DNA of 64,000 nt from Alteromonas abrolhosensis (GTDB lineage Bacteria; Pseudomonadota; Gammaproteobacteria; Enterobacterales; Alteromonadaceae), in contig NZ_MEJH01000004.1 of NCBI RefSeq assembly GCF_001953635.1, forward strand, positions 124,001-188,000, written 5' to 3'. Position 1 is the stretch's first letter. Every line of letters starts with the position of its first letter. The position numbers and the translations under genes were made by a program. The notes below the pieces were generated by a model. It saw nothing but the letters and a program-made list of their open reading frames with translations, was not told the origin of the DNA and did no database searches. Below, in pieces: positions 3,298 to 51,537 of the stretch.

Positions 3298-4254
3298 TTA
3301 AGGAACTGCGACAGTTGCAACAATCTTATCAAGTACGTCGTTAATCGTTACGCCTTCAGCCTCGGCTTGATATGACAGAATAATGCGGTGGCGAAGCACG
3401 TTGTGAACCACAGCTTGAATATCATCAGGACCAACAAAGTCTCTGCCGCTAAGCCATGCGTGAGCGCGTGCACAGCGATCTAAGCTTATGGTTGCTCGGG
3501 GGCTTGTTCCCATCGCTATCCACTGGCCTAATTCAGCGTCGAAATTTGCAGGCTGACGTGTAGCCATAATCAATTGAACTAAATACTGTTCTAACTCAGG
3601 CGCCATATACAAAGACAGCGCTTCTTTACGCGACGTAAAAATGTCGTCTTGAGTTAGCGTTGGTGGCGTAACGGGTGGCTCAGAGAGGGCCTCACCTCGC
3701 GTTAAGCGCAATATTTCCAATTCTGTCTCAGCGCCAGGATAATCGATGTCCACGTGCATCAAGAATCGGTCTAGCTGTGCTTCAGGTAGTGGATAAGTTC
3801 CTTCCTGCTCTAGCGGGTTTTGCGTCGCCATTACTAAAAATAGCGGAGGAAGAGGGTAGGTTTTACTGCCCACCGTAATCTGACGTTCGGCCATGGCTTC
3901 GAGCAGGGCCGACTGCACTTTTGCAGGTGCACGGTTGATTTCGTCGGCTAGCACTAGGTTATGAAAAAGCGGGCCTTTTTGAAAAACAAACTCGCCAGTC
4001 TCGGGGCGGTATATGTCTGTCCCAGTTAAGTCGGCAGGCAAAAGGTCAGGGGTAAATTGTACGCGATGAAAGTCGCCGTCAATACCGTTAGCAAGTGCAT
4101 TGATTGCGCGTGTTTTTGCAAGCCCTGGAGGGCCTTCTACCAGAAGGTGGCCGTCTGCCAAAAGAGCGATAAGAAGGCTTTTGGTTAACGCATGCTGACC
4201 AATAATCTGCTGGTCTAAATAAGCGTGTAACTGTTGAAATTGCGCTGCTGCCAT
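3298..4254 (-). CDS. MoxR family AAA+ ATPase
   Basis: A 318-residue AAA+ ATPase of the MoxR subfamily. Walker A is GPPGLAKT at residues 41-48 and Walker B is [11 protein letters not shown] around 100-110 (Asp104, Glu105). The sensor-type motif [23 protein letters not shown], diagnostic of MoxR proteins, follows. The C-terminal lid is complete, so length is normal. It is the first gene of a five-gene leftward operon with DUF58, DUF4381 and two VWA proteins. MoxR ATPases act as chaperones that load cofactors or mature VWA-containing partners; the client here is not evident. The promoter should lie in the 443-bp divergent gap shared with fadI. Confidence 0.93.
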
Positions 4255-4697
4255 AATGCAAAATTTCCGTTTGAGTTCTCGTTATCAGGAAGTGTCATTT
4301 GAGCGATAGATTTATTAAATCTCTTATAAAGTGATCGCTTAGCTAAAAAGTAAACTACATATTAATTTAGATAGCTCTAGCCCGTCACAATGACACAAAA
4401 CAGACTTTCATTTCCATATAAGGTTCATTCTATCTTTCTTCAAGTCGTCAAACAGTAATAAAAATGCGATATGTGGTGGAGGGCGAAACTTGCTTTCCTT
4501 AATCTCAAGCGAATTTAGCTAGCAAGTCTATTGGCTAACTGCACGAACGCTGCAAATTTTAGTTTCATTTATATTGCCCTTAATCCTGCATTATTTGCTA
4601 TTTTGTTCATTGTTTGTAAAAATCGGGTTTATTACAGGTCAGACCACTTCATTGGTAATGAGCTAAAGGTGAAGCTGGTCATAAATTTAGGTGCATT
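4255..4697. other. Divergent intergenic region between moxR and fadI
   Basis: 443 bp without a convincing gene. It is AT-rich and must hold the promoters of moxR (leftward) and fadI (rightward). The one clear site is the FadR-like palindrome at 4633-4649. An open frame of about 95 codons starting at 4531 runs into fadI in another frame and has no coding character, so it is not called. Confidence 0.6.
4633..4649 (+). promoter_or_regulatory. Putative FadR-type operator upstream of fadIJ
   Basis: The 17 bases contain a 9-bp palindrome, GGTC-A-GACC, and match the E. coli FadR consensus (AnCTGGTCnGACCAGnT) at 11 of 14 defined positions. It lies about 50 bp upstream of the fadI start. FadR represses fad genes when no long-chain acyl-CoA is present. 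That this organism uses FadR (rather than PsrA, known from some Alteromonadales) is not shown in the window. The palindrome is seen; the regulator is inferred. Confidence 0.45.
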
Positions 4698-6008
4698 ATG
4701 GCAACAAAACAATCAGTTACTACCCGAGAGGGTGAGCGCATCGCCATTGTCGCGGGGTTGCGTACTCCGTTTGCGAAAATGGCTACATATTTCCACGGTG
4801 TTCCGGCTGTTGATTTAGGTAAAATGGTCGTAAACGAACTTCTGGTTCGCCATGGTGTTCAAAAAGAATGGGTTGATCAGGTTGTTTATGGTCAGGTAGT
4901 GCAAATGCCTGAAGCGCCAAACATCGCACGAGAAATTGTGCTTGGCACTGGCATGAATGTTCATACCGACGCTTACAGTGTATCTCGTGCATGTGCGACG
5001 AGCTTTCAGTCAACGGTAAACATCGCTGAAAGCATGATGGCAGGCACGGTACAGGTAGGTATTGCTGGTGGTGCAGACTCAACATCGGTATCACCTATCG
5101 GTGTGTCTAAGAACCTTGCACGTGCGCTGGTAGATTTACAGAAAACCAAGACCTTGGGTCAAAAGCTGAATATCTTTAAGCGTTTAAGCTTAAAAGACTT
5201 AGCGCCAGTACCTCCAGCTGTAGCTGAGTACTCTACAGGTTTGTCGATGGGACAAACGGCAGAGCAAATGGCGAAAACGCATCAAATTTCTCGTGAAGAG
5301 CAAGATAAGCTTGCACATCGCTCGCACAGCCTAGCGGCTGAAAGCTGGGAAGCCGGCAAGTTGTCTAGCGAAGTGATGACCGCTTATGCAGAACCGTATA
5401 AAGGTGCGCTTGAACGCGACAACAACGTACGTTTCGATTCAAAGCTTGAAGGCTACGCGAAACTTCGCCCAGTATTTGACAAAAAGTACGGCTCTGTAAC
5501 TGCGGCAAACGCCACACCACTTACCGATGGTGCTTCTGCAGTGCTTATGATGACAGAGAGCCGAGCCAAAGAGCTAGGCTACACACCATTGGGCTACATT
5601 AAGAGCTACGCGTTTGCTGCAATCGACGTTTGGGAAGACATGCTAATGGGACCATCGTACGCGACACCTATCGCGTTAGATCGCGCTGGAATGACGCTAA
5701 ACGATTTAACGCTAATTGAAATGCACGAAGCGTTCGCAGCGCAAACCTTGGCAAACGTTAAGATGTTCGCAAGTGACAAGTTCGCCAAAGAGAAACTAGG
5801 TCGCGATAAAGCGACTGGCGAAATTGATATGGACAAATTCAACGTGATGGGTAGTTCAATTGCCTATGGTCACCCGTTTGCCGCAACCGGTACACGTATG
5901 ATCACGCAAATGCTTAACGAACTAAATCGCCGTGGCGGTGGTACAGGTCTACTGACTGCATGTGCTGCGGGTGGTCTTGGTGCCGCAATGATCGTGGAGA
6001 CAGAATAA
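4698..6008 (+). CDS. fadI: 3-ketoacyl-CoA thiolase FadI (beta-oxidation complex beta subunit)
   Basis: A 436-residue thiolase, the same length as E. coli FadI. It cleaves 3-ketoacyl-CoA with CoA to acetyl-CoA and a shortened acyl-CoA. The nucleophilic cysteine is Cys99 (SRACATSFQ); His392 ([10 protein letters not shown]) and Cys422 ([10 protein letters not shown]) complete the active site. FadI rather than FadA is supported by length and by the partner, fadJ, starting one base after the stop codon. The order fadI-fadJ is that of E. coli, where sixA follows; here sixA is 8.7 kb downstream. Likely controlled by a fatty-acid-responsive repressor at the 4633-4649 palindrome. Confidence 0.95.
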
Positions 6009-6009
6009 T

Positions 6010-8169
6010 ATGAGTCAGGAACAAGAAATGACAAATGAAGTTCAGCCGACATCAGGAGCATTTACGTTAACCAAGCAAGATAATGGCGTTGCTATTCTTA
6101 GCATGGACGTACCTGGCGAGAGCATGAATACGCTTAAAGCTGAGTTCGGCGATGAGATATCTGCCATGCTTGATGATATTGAGCGCGACAGCAGCATTAA
6201 AGGTGTTGTACTAACGAGCGGCAAGCCAAGCTCATTCGTAGCAGGTGCCGATATCACCATGCTAGCAGCGTGTAAAACCGCTGAAGACGCCACAACTATC
6301 GCTGCGGGCGGCCAAGCTATTTTCGATAGAATTGAAAATATGAAGGCTACCTTCGTTGCGGCTATCCATGGCCCAGCGTTAGGTGGTGGTTTAGAACTTG
6401 CCTTGGCGTGTCATTATCGCGTATGTACAGATTCACCTAGCACCCAGCTAGGTTTACCTGAAGTGCAGCTTGGCTTATTGCCGGGCAGTGGCGGCACTCA
6501 GCGTCTTCCTCGCCTAATCGGCATTCAGCAAGCAATGAAAATGATGCTTACTGGAGCCCCTGCGCGTGCTAAACAAGCTAAAAAATACGGCATTGTAGAT
6601 GATGTAGTACCGCACAGTGTTTTATTTAAAGTTGCTGAGCAATTTGCGCTTAAACGCAAACCAGAACGTGAAGCGCCGCAGAAGAGCGTAATGGACAAAG
6701 TGCTTGAGAAAACTGGCCCAGGCCGCAGCATGATGTTTAAAAAGGCTCGCGAAGCGACATTTGCCAAAACCAAAGGTAATTATCCAGCGCCGGGTTACAT
6801 AATTGATGTCATCGAAACAGGCATGAACGACGGGATGAAAGCGGGGCTTAAAGCCGAAGCTGAAGCCTTTGGTAAGCTTGTTATGACACCGGAGTCTTTC
6901 CAATTACGCCAGATTTTCTTCGCAACAACAGAAATGAAAAAAGAAAACGGCGTTGAGGGTGTTAAACCCGAAAAGATGAAGAAAGTAGGCGTACTTGGCG
7001 GTGGTTTAATGGGCGGTGGTATCGCCTATGTAACGTCGACCAAAGCAGGTGTACCTGTGCGTATTAAAGACGTACGTGCGGAAGGTATCGCCAATGCAAT
7101 GAAGTACAGCTATGACATCTTAAACAAAAAGGTGAAGAAGCGTTTCATGCGTAACAGCGAAATGCAGAAGCAGTTAGCGCTACTCACTGGTACACTTGAT
7201 TACAGCGGCTATCAAGATGCTGATATCGTGGTTGAGGCGGTTTTTGAAGACCTCGACCTTAAGCAAAAGATGGTGGCGGATATTGAAGAGAACTGCAAAG
7301 AAAGCACGATCTTCGCGTCTAATACATCGTCTATTCCAATCACACAAATTGCAGCTAAAGCAGCACGTCCCGAAAACGTGATTGGTCTGCATTACTTCTC
7401 GCCAGTAGACAAAATGCCATTGGCTGAAGTTATTGCTCACGACAAAACGTCTGATCAAGTTATTTCGTCTACGGTAGAGTTTGCTAAAAAGCAAGGCAAA
7501 ACGCCGGTAGTTGTTAAAGACGGTGCGGGTTTCTACGTAAACCGTATTTTAGCGCCTTACATGAATGAAGCGGCAAACCTCATTCTTGACGGTGAGCCTA
7601 TTGAGCACATCGATAAGTCATTGGTTAAGTTTGGCTTCCCGGTAGGCCCTGTGAAACTACTTGATGAAGTGGGCATTGATGTTGGTACTAAGATTATCCC
7701 ATTCCTTGTAGAGGCGTTCGGCGAGCGCTTCACTGCCCCAAGTGCTTTCGATAAAGTACTTGCAGATGGCAGAAAGGGTAAGAAAAATCAAAAAGGGTTT
7801 TATTCTTATGAAGGTAAAAAGCCAGGTAAAGAAGTGGACGAGTCAATCTACGAATTACTGGGTCTTTCACCTTCTGCTAAGTTAAGCGAAAAAGAAGTAG
7901 CGGAACGCTGCGTATTAATGATGCTTAACGAGGCGGCACGCTGTTTGGATGAGGGCGTTATCCGCAGTGCCCGTGACGGCGATATCGGTGCTATCTTTGG
8001 TATTGGTTTCCCTCCATTCTTAGGCGGTCCATTCCGCTACATGGATACGCTGGGAATTAAACACGTTGTTGCTCGTTTAAACCATTATGCTACTGCTGTG
8101 GGCGATAAATTTGCACCTGCGGAAGTGTTAGTGAAAATGGCGGAAAATGATCAGAAATTTTATAATTAA
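6010..8169 (+). CDS. fadJ: Fatty oxidation complex alpha subunit FadJ
   Basis: A 719-residue trifunctional protein (E. coli FadJ is 714). N-terminal crotonase domain (about 15-200) has both catalytic glutamates, Glu129 in GGGLELALAC and Glu151 in LPEVQLGLLPG, for enoyl-CoA hydration and isomerisation. The NAD-binding domain of 3-hydroxyacyl-CoA dehydrogenase starts at about 325 (VGVLGGGLMGGGIA), with catalytic His461 in LHYFSPVDKMPLAEV. It pairs with FadI into the FadIJ complex. The start at 6010 lies one base after the fadI stop, with GGAGA upstream; an alternative ATG at 6028 would remove six residues. A strong terminator follows at 8186. Confidence 0.95.
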   Translation: MSQEQEMTNEVQPTSGAFTLTKQDNGVAILSMDVPGESMNTLKAEFGDEISAMLDDIERDSSIKGVVLTSGKPSSFVAGADITMLAACKTAEDATTIAAGGQAIFDRIENMKATFVAAIHGPALGGGLELALACHYRVCTDSPSTQLGLPEVQLGLLPGSGGTQRLPRLIGIQQAMKMMLTGAPARAKQAKKYGIVDDVVPHSVLFKVAEQFALKRKPEREAPQKSVMDKVLEKTGPGRSMMFKKAREATFAKTKGNYPAPGYIIDVIETGMNDGMKAGLKAEAEAFGKLVMTPESFQLRQIFFATTEMKKENGVEGVKPEKMKKVGVLGGGLMGGGIAYVTSTKAGVPVRIKDVRAEGIANAMKYSYDILNKKVKKRFMRNSEMQKQLALLTGTLDYSGYQDADIVVEAVFEDLDLKQKMVADIEENCKESTIFASNTSSIPITQIAAKAARPENVIGLHYFSPVDKMPLAEVIAHDKTSDQVISSTVEFAKKQGKTPVVVKDGAGFYVNRILAPYMNEAANLILDGEPIEHIDKSLVKFGFPVGPVKLLDEVGIDVGTKIIPFLVEAFGERFTAPSAFDKVLADGRKGKKNQKGFYSYEGKKPGKEVDESIYELLGLSPSAKLSEKEVAERCVLMMLNEAARCLDEGVIRSARDGDIGAIFGIGFPPFLGGPFRYMDTLGIKHVVARLNHYATAVGDKFAPAEVLVKMAENDQKFYN

Positions 8170-46777: not shown

Positions 46778-48061
46778 GTGACTCGCTCTCTTCGATTGCC
46801 AATTACCAATACTTTCGCTGATGGCGGCTATAGTGTGAGAGCACATGTAGGCGCGGATCAGCAAGCAGTTCATCTGATTCTAGATACGGGAAGCGCTACG
46901 CTTGCTTTGGGCCACGCGCACTATCATGTAGAAAAAGATAATTATGTTGAGTTTACCTACTACTCTCAATCCATAAAATATGCAGAAGGCAGTTGGCACG
47001 GCCCTGTGGTCAAAACGACAGTGCGCCTTGGCATTTTTGGTCACAGTGTGACGCTACCTCAAACTTTCGTCGCGATTGCAAAAGAGCCAAATTCGCCCGA
47101 ACAACCTTGCTTTAAGAAAGCTGACGGAATTATGGGGTTGGCGTATCAACCACTAAATCACGCTTATCGCTACTGTGATGAAACCAAAGAAAAACTAAGT
47201 GAGTATGATCTTTATAGTGTTTTACTCTCGGATTCTGTAGAAACTGAACAAGCTGAACTAAACGTAGATAAGCCGATTGCCACAACGTTGCCCAGTTATT
47301 TTTCATATCTTGAGCAACAACATATAACAGCGAATAAGTTTGCGTTCTGGTTGCATCGTTCAAGTATTTATAACGTCGACAGTAACTGTCTTACCGCTGC
47401 GCTAGCTCATCGAACAAATTATGGGCTATTTGTGGTTGGTGAACCCCTATTTCACAAAGACTTATATTCGCCTCCTTTGTTGAATGCGAAAGTACTTCAC
47501 GACAAGTTTTATAACGTCACGTTGAAAGCTATAGAGTGCGAGGGTGTGGCCACTAATGCGCCGGTGTTGAAAGCTTCCGATCAAGCTCGCTGGTGTTCAA
47601 ATGCTATTGTCGATACAGGTGCTACTGTCATAGGCTTACCGGAGTCGCTGTATGATGATGTGATGGGGCAGATTCACGCGTGCGTTAGAAATGCCGATGT
47701 GTTGCTCGCGCCATTCACGGCTTTTTCGTTTCAAGAGCAAGGTATTCCATTAACGGAATTAGATCTTACAAAATGGCCAACGCTAACGTTTATACTTGAG
47801 GGGGAGCACGGGGAAGACATAGCGCTAAGGCTTCCTCCTGATGCATATTGGCAGATACACGCGCCGTCATACAACGAAGCGTCCTTTAAAATGTTTCCCT
47901 TAAAACACTGGCCAAATCAAACTATTCTGGGGCTTCCGCTGATTTCTCAATACTATACAATTTTTGACAGAGCACGAGGTGAATTTGGCGTGGTGTCCTT
48001 CGCACACAAAGTCACTGCTGGCCAAACAGTTGAAACACTAAAGCAAATTTTTAAAAAATAA
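46778..48061 (+). CDS. Pepsin-like aspartic peptidase (family A1, shewasin-like)
   Basis: A 427-residue bilobal aspartic protease with both catalytic motifs, DTGSA (Asp36) in ILDTGSATLALG and DTGAT (Asp279) in AIVDTGATVIGLP. The C-terminal ILGLPLISQYYTIFD matches the last conserved element of pepsins. There is no signal peptide and no obvious propeptide, so it should be cytoplasmic, as in the bacterial pepsin homologues described from Shewanella (shewasins). Start is GTG with AAGG seven bases upstream. It lies 45 bp after tyrA and 36 bp before a borosin-type methyltransferase gene, suggesting it may process that enzyme's peptide product. Substrate unknown. Confidence 0.88.
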   Translation: MTRSLRLPITNTFADGGYSVRAHVGADQQAVHLILDTGSATLALGHAHYHVEKDNYVEFTYYSQSIKYAEGSWHGPVVKTTVRLGIFGHSVTLPQTFVAIAKEPNSPEQPCFKKADGIMGLAYQPLNHAYRYCDETKEKLSEYDLYSVLLSDSVETEQAELNVDKPIATTLPSYFSYLEQQHITANKFAFWLHRSSIYNVDSNCLTAALAHRTNYGLFVVGEPLFHKDLYSPPLLNAKVLHDKFYNVTLKAIECEGVATNAPVLKASDQARWCSNAIVDTGATVIGLPESLYDDVMGQIHACVRNADVLLAPFTAFSFQEQGIPLTELDLTKWPTLTFILEGEHGEDIALRLPPDAYWQIHAPSYNEASFKMFPLKHWPNQTILGLPLISQYYTIFDRARGEFGVVSFAHKVTAGQTVETLKQIFKK

Positions 48062-48097
48062 TAACTGACATCAAATAACAACAATAAGGGAATTTTA

Positions 48098-48880
48098 ATG
48101 CAGCGGGGTAGTTTGGTTTGCGTGGGAACTGGCATGATGGTTGGCGCGCACATGTCGCCATTATGTCAAAGTCATATAGAACAGGCAGACGTCGTATTTG
48201 TATGCGTAGCCGAACACTATATGGAAGCGTGGATCACGTCTTTGAACAATAATACCGTCAATCTTCAATCATTCTATGAAGATGGAAAAGACCGTCACGA
48301 AACGTATGCCCAGATGACAAATGCGATGCTAGATAAGGTGCAACAAGGCCAAAAAGTTGTTGGGGCGTTTTACGGTCACCCCAGTGTATTTGCAAAAGCG
48401 CCGCTAGATGCAATAAACAGAGCCAAACAAAAAGGCTTCGAAGCATACATGCTACCTGGTATTTCCGCGGAATCGTGCCTGTATGCTGATTTGGGCGTCG
48501 ACCCTGGGGCAGTTGGTTGCCAGCATTATGAAGCAAACCAATTCCTTAAATTCAAACGGGAAATAGATACCGCTGCATACTTAATTTTATGGCAAGTGGG
48601 TGTTGTCGGCGACTTTTCAAGCGCTGTATATACTTCAACGCCACTTCAGCGAAAAAAGCTCACAGATAAATTACTGTCAATTTATAACGCCGAGGATACT
48701 GCTATTTTGTACGAAGCAGCAACGTTACCTATTGAAGGTTTCAGAGCAGAAAGTATTGCTATTGGTGACTTGCATGAACACGAAATTAATCAACATACAA
48801 CGCTGGTTATTCCACCGATAAAAACACTGAAGCTTGATGATACTGACTACTCCGCAAATAGTAATTTATGCAATTCGTAA
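48098..48880 (+). CDS. Borosin-type peptide backbone N-methyltransferase (SonM-like, TP-methylase fold)
   Basis: A 260-residue SAM-dependent enzyme of the tetrapyrrole-methylase fold. It starts RGSLVCVGTGMMVG and has the SAM-site segment FYGHPSVF (91-98) and PGISAESCLYADLGVDPG (120-137). Instead of tetrapyrrole-methylase features it carries the motif Tyr60 ... Arg66-His-Glu-Thr-Tyr70-Ala-Gln-Met73, equivalent to the R-x-x-T-Y-x-Q-M motif of borosin alpha-N-methyltransferases (fungal OphMA, Shewanella SonM). Those enzymes methylate backbone amides of a ribosomal peptide. No precursor is fused, so a split substrate is expected. It overlaps the following GNAT gene by 13 bp. Confidence 0.85.
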   Translation: MQRGSLVCVGTGMMVGAHMSPLCQSHIEQADVVFVCVAEHYMEAWITSLNNNTVNLQSFYEDGKDRHETYAQMTNAMLDKVQQGQKVVGAFYGHPSVFAKAPLDAINRAKQKGFEAYMLPGISAESCLYADLGVDPGAVGCQHYEANQFLKFKREIDTAAYLILWQVGVVGDFSSAVYTSTPLQRKKLTDKLLSIYNAEDTAILYEAATLPIEGFRAESIAIGDLHEHEINQHTTLVIPPIKTLKLDDTDYSANSNLCNS

Positions 48881-49380
48881 CGCATCGTTTTACTTGCGAA
48901 CTGCTTGACGCTAAGTGGGCTGCAGAGGCGGCAGCTCTGTATCAAGATGAGAAAGTAATGCGGTTAATTGGCACGCCCCTGACTAAAGCCGAAAGTGAGC
49001 GAGTGACTAGTGGGTTCATTGAAGCAAACCGTCAGCCTTGGCCAACGCAGAAAGTCTGGGTAATAACATGCAATTACACAAAAGCATTTTGCGGTATTCA
49101 GATGTTACGTAAACATACTCACAAGAATAGTGCAGAGATTGGCATAATGTTAGCTCGAAAGATGAATGGCAAAGGGGCTGCTCGGGAAGCGATGGGAGCC
49201 TTGGTTGACTACGGTATTTCACATGTAAATCTCGACCGCATCGTTGCTCAGTTCCAAATACGCCATTTGGCAACACGGCGATTAGTTACTCAATTGGGCT
49301 TTGTTAAGAAAAACGACAGTTTATCAACGGGAAGCAAAAGCGAACTAACAACCTATACTTTTGAACGTCTTTGTAACTGA
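48868..49380 (+). CDS. GNAT family N-acetyltransferase (RimJ/RimL-like)
   Basis: A 170-residue GNAT protein. The acetyl-CoA-binding segment is EIGIMLARKMNGKGAAREAMGALVDYGI, followed by the usual ALxRIVAQF-type strand (LDRIVAQFQIRHLATRRLVTQLGFVK). RimJ/RimL-type members acetylate N-termini of proteins or small amines. Its 13-bp overlap with the borosin-type methylase gene points to a shared role; acetylation of the same peptide is an attractive but unproven idea. Confidence 0.82.
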   Translation: MQFVTHRFTCELLDAKWAAEAAALYQDEKVMRLIGTPLTKAESERVTSGFIEANRQPWPTQKVWVITCNYTKAFCGIQMLRKHTHKNSAEIGIMLARKMNGKGAAREAMGALVDYGISHVNLDRIVAQFQIRHLATRRLVTQLGFVKKNDSLSTGSKSELTTYTFERLCN

Positions 49381-49545
49381 GTTATCGTCAACCGACCGAT
49401 TAACCATAAGTTGCCCTTAAACGCGACGCGTGTGTCCACTCGCACTGGTATTATATGTCAAAAAGACTATACGTAATTGATTAACATCCCATCAATTTGT
49501 TGATAATCTAGTATTAACTAAAAATTATAAGCTGAATACACACTC

Positions 49546-49758
49546 ATGAAGGCGCTAAAAGAATTACTAGCAATTGCACAAGATGCATCTAAACAAAGCA
49601 ACTCCGACATTATTGCTCAGTTCAAGGCTGATCACGCTGATGAACTTTCAAAAGACAAAGAAAAAATGTGGTGTCTTTTGATGCCAGAAGACGAAGAGCA
49701 AGAAGCGCCAGGAGATGCACCAGACAGTGGCGAAAAGAACCAAGTTTCAATTCACTAA
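49546..49758 (+). CDS. Small acidic protein; possible borosin precursor
   Basis: A 70-residue protein. Residues 1-50 are predicted helical (KALKELLAIAQDASKQ and ADELSKDKEKMWCLLMPED), the last 20 are acidic and disordered (Asp, Glu, Gly, Pro) and end NQVSIH. Split-borosin precursors such as SonA have a helical recognition domain followed by a short C-terminal core with aliphatic residues; layout and size fit, and a few short patterns (QDA, L-S/T-x-D/E) look alike, but there is no decisive homology. It has its own AT-rich upstream region, 165 bp after the GNAT gene. The ribosome site is weak. Alternative: an unrelated small cytoplasmic protein. Confidence 0.5.
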   Translation: MKALKELLAIAQDASKQSNSDIIAQFKADHADELSKDKEKMWCLLMPEDEEQEAPGDAPDSGEKNQVSIH

Positions 49759-49773
49759 CCGTGATAGTTGAAA

Positions 49774-51537
49774 ATGCTGTCTAGATTATTAATAGGGGCG
49801 TTAATTTGCCCCTTTTTCATATTCCCCCTTGCTGCAGACGAAATAGATCAACAGCTACAGCAAGCTGACACACTTCGTAGTCAGGACGTTACTGCGTTTC
49901 GTACTTCATTATCTGAACTTTCTGCAAAATCACGCTCATTCTCTCCTGCCCAAGTTCAATACTTTAACTATCTCAATGCTTATAGTTTGTCGTATTCAGG
50001 AAAGTTGATAGAAGCGGTTCCACTTTATGAAAGTGTTTTTCAAAGTGCTACAGATAAATCTCTACAGCTACGGGCTAAAAACTCTATTCTTAACAACTTC
50101 GCATTAGTCAGAGATTTTCCCAAAGCGCTTCAGCAAATTCCTGACATCGTCCCTCTTCTTTCGTTGGCTAAAGACAAAGATAAGCACCTATCGATTTTAA
50201 CGATTGCGCTTTTCTATAATCAGCTCGAAGAATTTGAACAGAGTTTGCAATACAGCAATCGCGTGATTGGACAAAACCTTTCTCCCCGCAACGAGTGTTT
50301 GGCTCACAACCTGCGTAGTGAGTCTTTGCATAATTTGGGGCGTCTTGACCGTGAGACGTTAATGACAACTATTGCAGTGTGCGAAGCGAGTAAAGAGCCT
50401 ATTGCTCTGAACCTAGCAAAGTTATGGCTTGCTCAATTAATGTTAGCCTCGCCGGATGGGGTAGCAGGGGCATTAGACGCTTTGCTTGTCATTCAAAAGG
50501 ATGTGGAAAGTACTAACTATCCACGATTAACGTCGGAATATTATACAGTTTTAGCCCAGGCTTACCTTGCGAACAAACTCTTTCACAACGCCCAGGAAAG
50601 TGCCCTGAAAGGCGCTGAGCTCGCAAAGGGTATGGGTTACTCTAAACCAAGAAAAACGGCGTATCACACTCTTTATCAATCGGCGATTGAGCAAGGGAAC
50701 AATGTAAAAGCGTTAGAGGCGTATATACAGTACGCTGAAGCCGACAAGGCGTATCTGGATGAGTACAACGTTAAGCAAATGGCTATTCAACAAGCCAAGT
50801 TCGATAACCTTGAAAAGAATATTGAAATCCAACTGCTGGACAAAGAAAACAGCCTATTAAAAGCACAAGCTGCCCTGTCGAGAGAAGAAAAGCAAAATCA
50901 CAGGCTGTTGATAACATTGCTTGCTTCCACAACCATACTTGTTCTTATGTGGGCAATAATAAATCGCAAGTTACATGCTGCGCTAAAAGAAAAGGCGCAA
51001 ACTGACTCGCTGACAAAGGTGGCCAATCGTCACTACTTTACTGAGTTAGCGACGAAAGCACTAAAGCGAGCAGCAGACCACCAAGAAATATTGTCTTTTG
51101 TAATTTTCGACCTTGATCATTTTAAAGCAGTTAACGACAGCTACGGTCATCCAACCGGAGATTGGGTGCTTAAGGCAGTGGTTAGCGCAGTGAAGAAGCA
51201 TTGCAGAAAGGAAGATGTTTTTGGTCGCTTAGGTGGCGAAGAGTTCGGTTTGCTTTTACCAGGGTGCTCAGAGCAAAAGGCGAAAGAAATAGCGGAAAGT
51301 ATGCGAAATAGTATTCGTCAAATCGATACAAGGGAAAGTGGCTTTACCTTCGATGTTTCTGCAAGCTTCGGTATTTCTAGTACTGCGTCGTCAAAGTATC
51401 AATTCGAGGCGCTTTATGCCAATGCCGACGAGGCTTTATATGGTAGTAAAAAGCATGGCCGCAATAGAGTATCTGTCTATCATATTAATGGTAAAAGTGA
51501 TGTTGCCAGTGTCGGGCAAGCCTTTCAGCCTGCCTAA
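49774..51537 (+). CDS. Periplasmic-TPR diguanylate cyclase (GGDEF)
   Basis: A 587-residue protein (a TTG at 49768 would add two residues, MKM; neither start has a clear ribosome site). Order: signal peptide or anchor (about 1-20), a periplasmic helical region of TPR type (about 25-340), a coiled coil, one membrane helix (about 378-398) and a C-terminal GGDEF domain with active-site RLGGEEFGLLL near 488. GGEEF variants are active, so it probably makes cyclic di-GMP. TPR-GGDEF proteins sense envelope or peptide signals. It follows the small acidic gene with a 15-bp gap but may be independent. Confidence 0.85.
   Translation: MLSRLLIGALICPFFIFPLAADEIDQQLQQADTLRSQDVTAFRTSLSELSAKSRSFSPAQVQYFNYLNAYSLSYSGKLIEAVPLYESVFQSATDKSLQLRAKNSILNNFALVRDFPKALQQIPDIVPLLSLAKDKDKHLSILTIALFYNQLEEFEQSLQYSNRVIGQNLSPRNECLAHNLRSESLHNLGRLDRETLMTTIAVCEASKEPIALNLAKLWLAQLMLASPDGVAGALDALLVIQKDVESTNYPRLTSEYYTVLAQAYLANKLFHNAQESALKGAELAKGMGYSKPRKTAYHTLYQSAIEQGNNVKALEAYIQYAEADKAYLDEYNVKQMAIQQAKFDNLEKNIEIQLLDKENSLLKAQAALSREEKQNHRLLITLLASTTILVLMWAIINRKLHAALKEKAQTDSLTKVANRHYFTELATKALKRAADHQEILSFVIFDLDHFKAVNDSYGHPTGDWVLKAVVSAVKKHCRKEDVFGRLGGEEFGLLLPGCSEQKAKEIAESMRNSIRQIDTRESGFTFDVSASFGISSTASSKYQFEALYANADEALYGSKKHGRNRVSVYHINGKSDVASVGQAFQPA

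Follow-up and report, generated by a model that had tools for sequence, protein, structure and literature searches.

The closest described counterparts of the system analyzed here come from Shewanella. SonM and SonA of S. oneidensis form a type IV (split) borosin, in which a separate precursor of ~ 70 amino acids (aa) accompanies the methylase, and SonM residues Y58, R67, Y71, and Y93 have been probed by mutation (PMC8429565, in the parts used here). Descriptions of bacterial pepsins date back to 2009, and the sources used here assign them no function (PMC2761423 and PMC4814920, likewise in part). Shewasins have neither signal peptide nor prosegment, and shewasin D is mainly cytosolic; hydrophobic residues flank the cut, with Leu and aromatics preferred at P1, Leu under-represented at P1', and Pro or Asp favored at P4' (PMC4814920, main text in part). 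In the present work, we analyze a 64,000-nucleotide stretch of Alteromonas abrolhosensis (hereafter, the window; contig NZ_MEJH01000004.1, positions 124,001 to 188,000 of the forward strand), in which genes for an A1 aspartic protease, a SonM-family methylase, a GNAT acetyltransferase, a 70-aa precursor open reading frame (ORF), and a TPR-sensor diguanylate cyclase follow one another on the + strand (46778-51537). The best explanation, to which we give a probability of roughly 60%, is a shewasin-linked type IV borosin operon whose peptide inhibits its own protease and reports to cyclic di-GMP (c-di-GMP).

An earlier note had placed a split-borosin cluster of four genes at 46778-49758. All four are present there on the + strand; the proposed end at 49758 is one gene early, as the TPR-sensor diguanylate cyclase gene (49768-51537) was missed. 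The note also knew of no borosin pathway with a protease of the pepsin type. A 2024 report by Lee et al. in ACS Chem Biol (19:1116) is said to describe a borosin precursor as the native inhibitor of shewasin A; it would thus concern the present system, with protease and peptide related in the way proposed here. That report is not known to treat the TPR-GGDEF partner. As shewasin A also has the same gene arrangement, the pairing of protease and borosin has probably been published and the note's statement is probably outdated. The literature that we searched, which omitted the main borosin papers, yielded neither a link between borosins and a TPR-GGDEF sensor nor a joint treatment of borosins and shewasins or pepsins, nor a paper on a Shewanella borosin with an acetyltransferase.

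The methylase belongs to the borosin family and is predicted to N-methylate peptide backbones. It matches the Pfam family TP_methylase (PF00590, E 3.4e-16), its closest relatives in the PDB are SonM chains (7ltc, E 1.9e-63) followed by OphMA-type fused enzymes, and it stands alone without a fusion partner. Its Y60, R66, Y70, and Y92 align with the four probed SonM residues, so the earlier note had read the SonM/OphMA-type motif correctly. For this alignment, SonM was represented by a near-identical protein from locus L142 (E 1.3e-170), where a near-identical SonA counterpart (E 1.8e-38) and then a sensor-GGDEF gene follow. A rival reading holds that the methylase acts on a non-peptide, namely a tetrapyrrole, among unrelated neighbors. 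The Pfam name would suit it, as would matches to NCBIfam tetrapyrrole and related methylase models, which are weak (best 2.7e-11) and all far below cut-off. The SonM match, the conserved catalytic residues, and a conserved precursor speak strongly against it, and we reject tetrapyrrole methylation as highly improbable. Close homologs acting on tetrapyrroles, one of the results that the earlier note had named as refuting its proposal, were not found, the nearest relatives being SonM.

The 70-aa ORF is, by family profile and structural prediction, a split-borosin precursor with a SonA-related leader. Taken alone, the window protein has no Pfam match and finds nothing in the PDB better than E 0.32, SonA not being among its matches. 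A profile of 45 precursors with no SonA-type rows (A5) ranks seven SonA chains at the top (E 0.0015-0.0022; next match 0.46). An earlier profile (A3) had reached SonA at 2e-12; A5 was used instead because five of the 57 rows of A3 were already SonA-type. In the family alignment, the N-terminal half is helical and is followed by a hydrophobic core, in which C43 and P47 are conserved in at least 90% of sequences, and by an acidic tail. In 29/29 neighborhoods examined, the interval between the methylase and GGDEF genes holds a small ORF. The predicted structure, of moderate confidence (pLDDT 68), has helices at residues 2-12, 14-17, and 20-36 and is unstructured thereafter, and a simple hydropathy scan found no hydrophobic signal segment. 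An alternative precursor in the gap between protease and methylase was rejected, as that gap holds the GNAT gene in most relatives. Compared with SonM-SonA, which shares the methylase family, the catalytic residues, and the separate precursor with a related helical leader, the window differs in its methylase clade, its shorter leader, its hydrophobic core followed by an acidic tail, and the addition of a GNAT and an A1 protease. With the SonM match and the precursor profile that finds SonA first, the split-borosin cluster with a 70-residue precursor proposed earlier is borne out, and we regard its assignment to type IV as nearly certain.

The protease was described earlier as an A1 pepsin-like enzyme; we agree and find it intact. 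It matches Pfam Asp (PF00026, E 1e-18) and retains both catalytic Asp residues (D36-TGS and D279-TGA, with Ala after the second DTG), the flap Tyr (Y68), and the hydrophobic-hydrophobic-Gly motifs I118-M-G120 and I383-L-G385. Judged by the diagnostic features given in the parts of PMC2761423 used here, it belongs to the shewasin type. No hydrophobic signal segment was found across its length by a simple hydropathy scan, in place of a dedicated signal-peptide program. Table 1 of PMC2761423 gives positions for S. amazonensis Sama_0787 (969066..970403, complement), S. denitrificans Sden_0804, S. loihica Shew_2996, and S. sediminis Ssed_3567; all coincide with protease matches in the four genomes, and in 4/4 the genes behind the protease are those for GNAT, methylase, precursor(s), and TPR sensor. 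Assigned in this way by coordinates, shewasins A and D belong to the same gene set as the orthologous window protease, with all five gene kinds present. Their order is protease, GNAT, methylase, precursor, sensor, whereas in the window the methylase precedes the GNAT; the S. denitrificans (shewasin D) locus further differs in having three tandem precursor genes. Neither the gene neighborhood of shewasins nor methylase or acetyltransferase partners are mentioned in the main text of PMC4814920, so far as it was available. The presence of shewasins A and D and a borosin precursor in one conserved gene set gives each an immediate partner to test.

Conservation was assessed in two samples, drawn rather than complete, of 394 genomes from the order and 398 from the phylum. 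With cut-offs in the order sample of E up to 1e-20 for the methylase and up to 1e-5 for the protease, 95/394 genomes have the methylase and 39/394 the protease. All 39 protease genomes also have the methylase (39/39; Fisher p 6e-28, uncorrected for phylogeny), and in 23 of them the two genes lie within 3 kilobases (kb). A genus-wide search (E up to 1e-20) finds the protease in 39/129 Shewanella-group genomes. Among the named protease loci, which are the best 80 of 111 and in which genes on either strand were counted, 45 hold all five genes, 8 hold part of the set (some being cut by contig ends), and 27 have the protease without any of the other four; some named loci, e.g., L216, L224, and L227, are from the same genomes as loci used for training. 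The window's gene order occurs in 6/80 (L207, L208, L210, L211, L265, L271; Bowmanella, Alteromonas, Salinimonas), and the commonest order (23 loci) has the GNAT ahead of the methylase. A chance neighborhood of five genes was rejected on the co-occurrence counts across genomes. By gene content, the split-borosin gene set is real and widely conserved: the four genes whose recurrence the earlier note had proposed to look for are found together, with the sensor, in the 45 complete loci, and the 39/39 count speaks against a set confined to this strain. In the phylum sample, the methylase is present in 15/398 genomes, 11 of them shared with the order sample; the new ones are three from the same class, which carry a precursor and a sensor, and G416 from another class, which carries neither. 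In G416, the borosin-type methylase (L289, 4384-5166, - strand) lies inside a 1177-aa open frame, possibly a fused architecture.

A tree of 134 methylases including that of the window (a duplicate, L166, a fragment, L090, and about ten further listed places were left out) puts the window methylase in a clade of 51 with support 0.952. We counted a protease or precursor gene as near the methylase when it lay within 2.5 kb, a GNAT within 1.2 kb, and a sensor within 3 kb, on either strand; the neighborhood profiles were trained on ORFs of L066-L105 and the window, where matches are not independent. Within the clade, 38 methylases come from protease-positive genomes, and a nearby GNAT accompanies 44, a recognized precursor 50, and a TPR sensor 50. 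The corresponding counts for the 83 methylases outside the clade are 4, 42, and 75, and only one of the 83 is near a protease, which is also near a clade member. A clade member is carried by 38/39 protease genomes; in the remaining genome, a methylase fragment at the edge of a contig adjoins the protease. Conversely, 11/49 clade genomes have methylase, precursor, and sensor (the GNAT not always) without a detected protease, 2 of these 11 genomes being fragmented or incomplete.

The TPR sensor, not the protease, is the most constant partner in borosin loci. A sensor gene lies behind 137/149 precursor matches on the same strand within 600 base pairs (bp), with a median gap of 56 bp; counting distinct precursors only, the figure is 126/138, or 98/107 outside the training loci. 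By methylase, a sensor is found within 3 kb of 125/134, including 96/103 outside the training loci. The presence of a receptor-like TPR protein behind almost every precursor found makes a signaling role of bacterial split borosins testable. In the window protein, GGDEF is the sole Pfam match (PF00990, E 5.9e-44), with an intact GGEEF signature preceded by an N-terminal hydrophobic segment, a helical-repeat domain (~ 41-308), and a second hydrophobic segment (379-400). Because hydrophobic segments lie on either side of it, the repeat domain is probably periplasmic. A simple scan sees both segments in only 28/44 aligned sensors, a set picked for high similarity and including the window, in which C177 and C205 are invariant. 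The GG[DE]EF signature is present in 126/137 sensor partners and absent in 11, some of which are cut by contig ends. Domain scans of 36 partners, picked to include unusual ones and hence no census, gave TPR_12 in 25, GGDEF in 19, and HisKA in 9.

The sensor model (pLDDT 92.5, pTM 0.63) resembles peptide-pheromone receptors of the Rap type, in the family called RRNPP. With VIA-align, sensor residues 20-344 superpose on peptide-bound Rap structures (Z ~ 23 over ~ 305 residues), namely 8rsv (Z 23.6 over 309 residues), 4gyo (23.3 over 306), 8rtc (23.2 over 302), 8rst (23.2 over 309), and 4i9c (23.0 over 310). Identity is 8-11% and root-mean-square deviation 4.0-4.8, in a comparison that covered these five Rap entries; the window sensor also differs from Rap in being apparently membrane-bound with a C-terminal GGDEF domain. 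The 50 matches listed by Foldseek are all GGDEF-bearing chains, none displaying the sensor's own fold. We consider the modeled Rap likeness a strong lead. A ligand-receptor pair would be expected to look like this, with a conserved small peptide next to a conserved sensor whose outputs can be exchanged; that the sensor reads the peptide is a proposal we make tentatively.

Several loci show variants of the sensor arrangement. In the window genome, 51 places match the TPR-GGDEF profile, nearly all via GGDEF, and only four matches cover the sensor part, two of them adjoining the genome's two borosin methylases. The second split-borosin locus (L106; C13:689000-697000, 3378-7704, + strand) has a methylase and a 68-aa SonA-like small ORF, which was recognized by eye and not called by the precursor profile; its sensor output is a TPR hybrid histidine kinase (HisKA, HATPase, two receivers, Hpt) in place of GGDEF. 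Colwellia-type loci (L232, L235, L237, L240, L241, L252) contain repeated precursor-sensor pairs, in several cases with a GNAT between, as if every peptide had its own sensor. Kangiella-type loci (L128-L132, L134-L137, L141, L146) have TPR-only proteins of ~ 351-374 aa without the GGDEF signature, mostly in tandem, adjoining a methylase of another clade. In S. denitrificans (identified by coordinates; L292, 6464-8560, + strand), the three tandem precursor genes have different cores and are followed by one sensor gene, whose signature reads GGEEI rather than GG[DE]EF.

The precursor core provides a further link to the protease. Clade precursors carry the motif PA[EDKR][DEP][DE] in 34/38 cases from protease genomes versus 4/12 from genomes without the protease (p 3e-4), in a post hoc test of a motif defined after looking and without phylogenetic independence. 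The fragmented genomes G013 and G058 account for three of the four motif-bearing precursors from protease-negative genomes. In 11 Kangiella-type genomes, the protease is unlinked (distant or on another contig), and the motif is present in 11/11 clade precursors; in G082, the protease is unlinked and the motif absent. Because the motif tracks the protease also where the two are unlinked, the relation between core and protease would operate in trans, with the core as inhibitor or substrate. That the core acts directly with the protease is, in our judgment, likely. Its register may place C43 at P1 and hence P47 at P4', matching the published preference for Pro or Asp.

Under the preferred reading, the methylase would bind the helical leader and N-methylate amides in the hydrophobic core MWCLLMPEDE, and the methylated core would occupy the protease cleft as a substrate that cannot be cut. 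The pepsin, cytosolic and without a prosegment, would thereby be inhibited by the product of a separate gene, the precursor, acting in the manner of a prosegment. The GNAT would modify the precursor or peptide further, and the membrane TPR-GGDEF protein would link c-di-GMP to whether the peptide is free, bound to the protease, or processed; of these steps, the one between peptide and sensor is the least certain. Inhibition fits because shewasins have no prosegment, their P4' preference is for Pro or Asp, and a methylated amide would resist cleavage; that the precursor acts mainly as a protease inhibitor is somewhat favored in our view. Several observations weigh against this reading, beginning with the post hoc nature of the motif test. 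The window's own core (LLMPEDE; PEDEE) departs from the PAEDD motif, as do three other precursors from protease-positive genomes, one of which (G213) has a protease remnant only. C43 at P1 misfits the published preference there, and the window residue at P1' would be Leu, which is under-represented at that position in shewasins. The inhibitor role of the precursor depends on what the 2024 report is said to describe, and the 27/80 protease loci without partner genes suggest that the enzyme acts in other ways too or has its partners elsewhere in the genome. The sensor domain is apparently periplasmic, yet the precursor has no signal segment, and no exporter is found among the five genes. The GGEEI of S. 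denitrificans also means that cyclase activity is not certain everywhere.

Two other accounts of the peptide deserve weight. The earlier note had the protease release the methylated core, and in its fuller form this account makes the protease a maturation enzyme that cuts the N-methylated core from the precursor, with the GNAT capping a released natural product. An enzyme-substrate pair would explain co-location and the core-protease correlation equally well, and a hydrophobic core followed by P-x-D/E suits proteases that cut between hydrophobic residues and favor Pro or Asp at P4'. However, methylase, precursor, and sensor persist without a detected protease in 11/49 clade genomes, the one protease near a non-clade methylase (1/83) is also near a clade member, and the protease is unlinked in Kangiella-type genomes. 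Backbone N-methylation normally hinders proteolysis, and the 2024 report is said to make the peptide an inhibitor. Release is thus not supported as the earlier note had worded it, and we consider this account unlikely.

Alternatively, the set could be a peptide-signaling system, in which the methylated peptide is the ligand of a periplasmic TPR sensor, Rap/RRNPP-like, that drives a GGDEF domain or histidine kinase while the protease tunes the peptide's level. The sensor's constancy is in its favor, both near methylases (50/51 in the shewasin clade, 75/83 elsewhere) and behind precursors (137/149), as are the repeated pairs in Colwellia-type loci, the output swapped to a hybrid histidine kinase at L106, HisKA in 9/36 scanned partners, the adjacency of 2/4 sensor-covering matches in the window genome to its two borosin methylases, and the match to Rap-peptide complexes (Z 23.0-23.6 over 302-310 residues). 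Nevertheless, TPR folds resemble one another and a common fold is no proof of function, identity to Rap is only 8-11%, some loci have TPR proteins of ~ 354 aa without an output domain, and the set has no exporter gene and a peptide without a signal segment. We hold this account to be possible, at less weight than the inhibitor operon. A broader proposal, which we consider rather unlikely as a whole, is that gammaproteobacterial split borosins including SonM-SonA are N-methylated peptide signals rather than orphan natural products, each with a Rap-like receptor (c-di-GMP or kinase), and that the shewasin-branch peptide also restrains its pepsin, in which case a single molecule would report on both the protease's state and c-di-GMP.

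Two further observations concern the protease. In G213 (Shewanella group; L099, 3133-3447, + strand), a short N-terminal protease remnant with an open frame of 112 aa is accompanied by GNAT, methylase, and two precursors, both of whose cores lack the PAEDD motif. A1 pepsin-type proteases at L238, L242, L243, L276, L284, and L285 stand in loci that lack the other four genes; the records are labeled Solibacteraceae, Acidobacteriaceae, Planctomycetales, Synechococcus (a metagenome-assembled genome, MAG), and Tahibacter, and MAG binning errors are possible.

Features of the five-gene unit in the window, with the evidence for each assignment
Feature	Coordinates	Strand	Basis
A1 aspartic protease, shewasin type, 427 aa, GTG start	46778..48061	+	Pfam, catalytic residues
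Predicted split-borosin alpha-N-methyltransferase, SonM family, 260 aa	48098..48880	+	PDB search, residue alignment
GNAT acetyltransferase, Acetyltransf_3 type, 170 aa	48868..49380	+	Pfam
Predicted borosin precursor, 70 aa: helical BBD-like leader 1-36, core, acidic tail	49546..49758	+	Family profile, model
Putative core, precursor residues 41-50, MWCLLMPEDE	49666..49695	+	Family alignment
TPR-sensor diguanylate cyclase, 589 aa from TTG 49768 (ATG at 49774)	49768..51537	+	Pfam, model

Within the unit, the methylase and GNAT reading frames overlap by 13 nucleotides, the GNAT being assigned by its Acetyltransf_3 match (E 2.9e-19), and the gap between the precursor and the sensor gene is 9 bp from the TTG start or 15 bp from the ATG. 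Counts of sigma-70 promoters and terminators were not above those of shuffled sequence (10 vs 9.3 and 6 vs 5.2, respectively), and we therefore draw no transcription-unit claim from them. Upstream (5') of the protease gene are genes for DAHP synthase and chorismate mutase-prephenate dehydrogenase, and on the 3' side, on the opposite strand, is a gene that we take to encode chorismate mutase-prephenate dehydratase. With these genes on either side, the five-gene unit is embedded in a housekeeping neighborhood.

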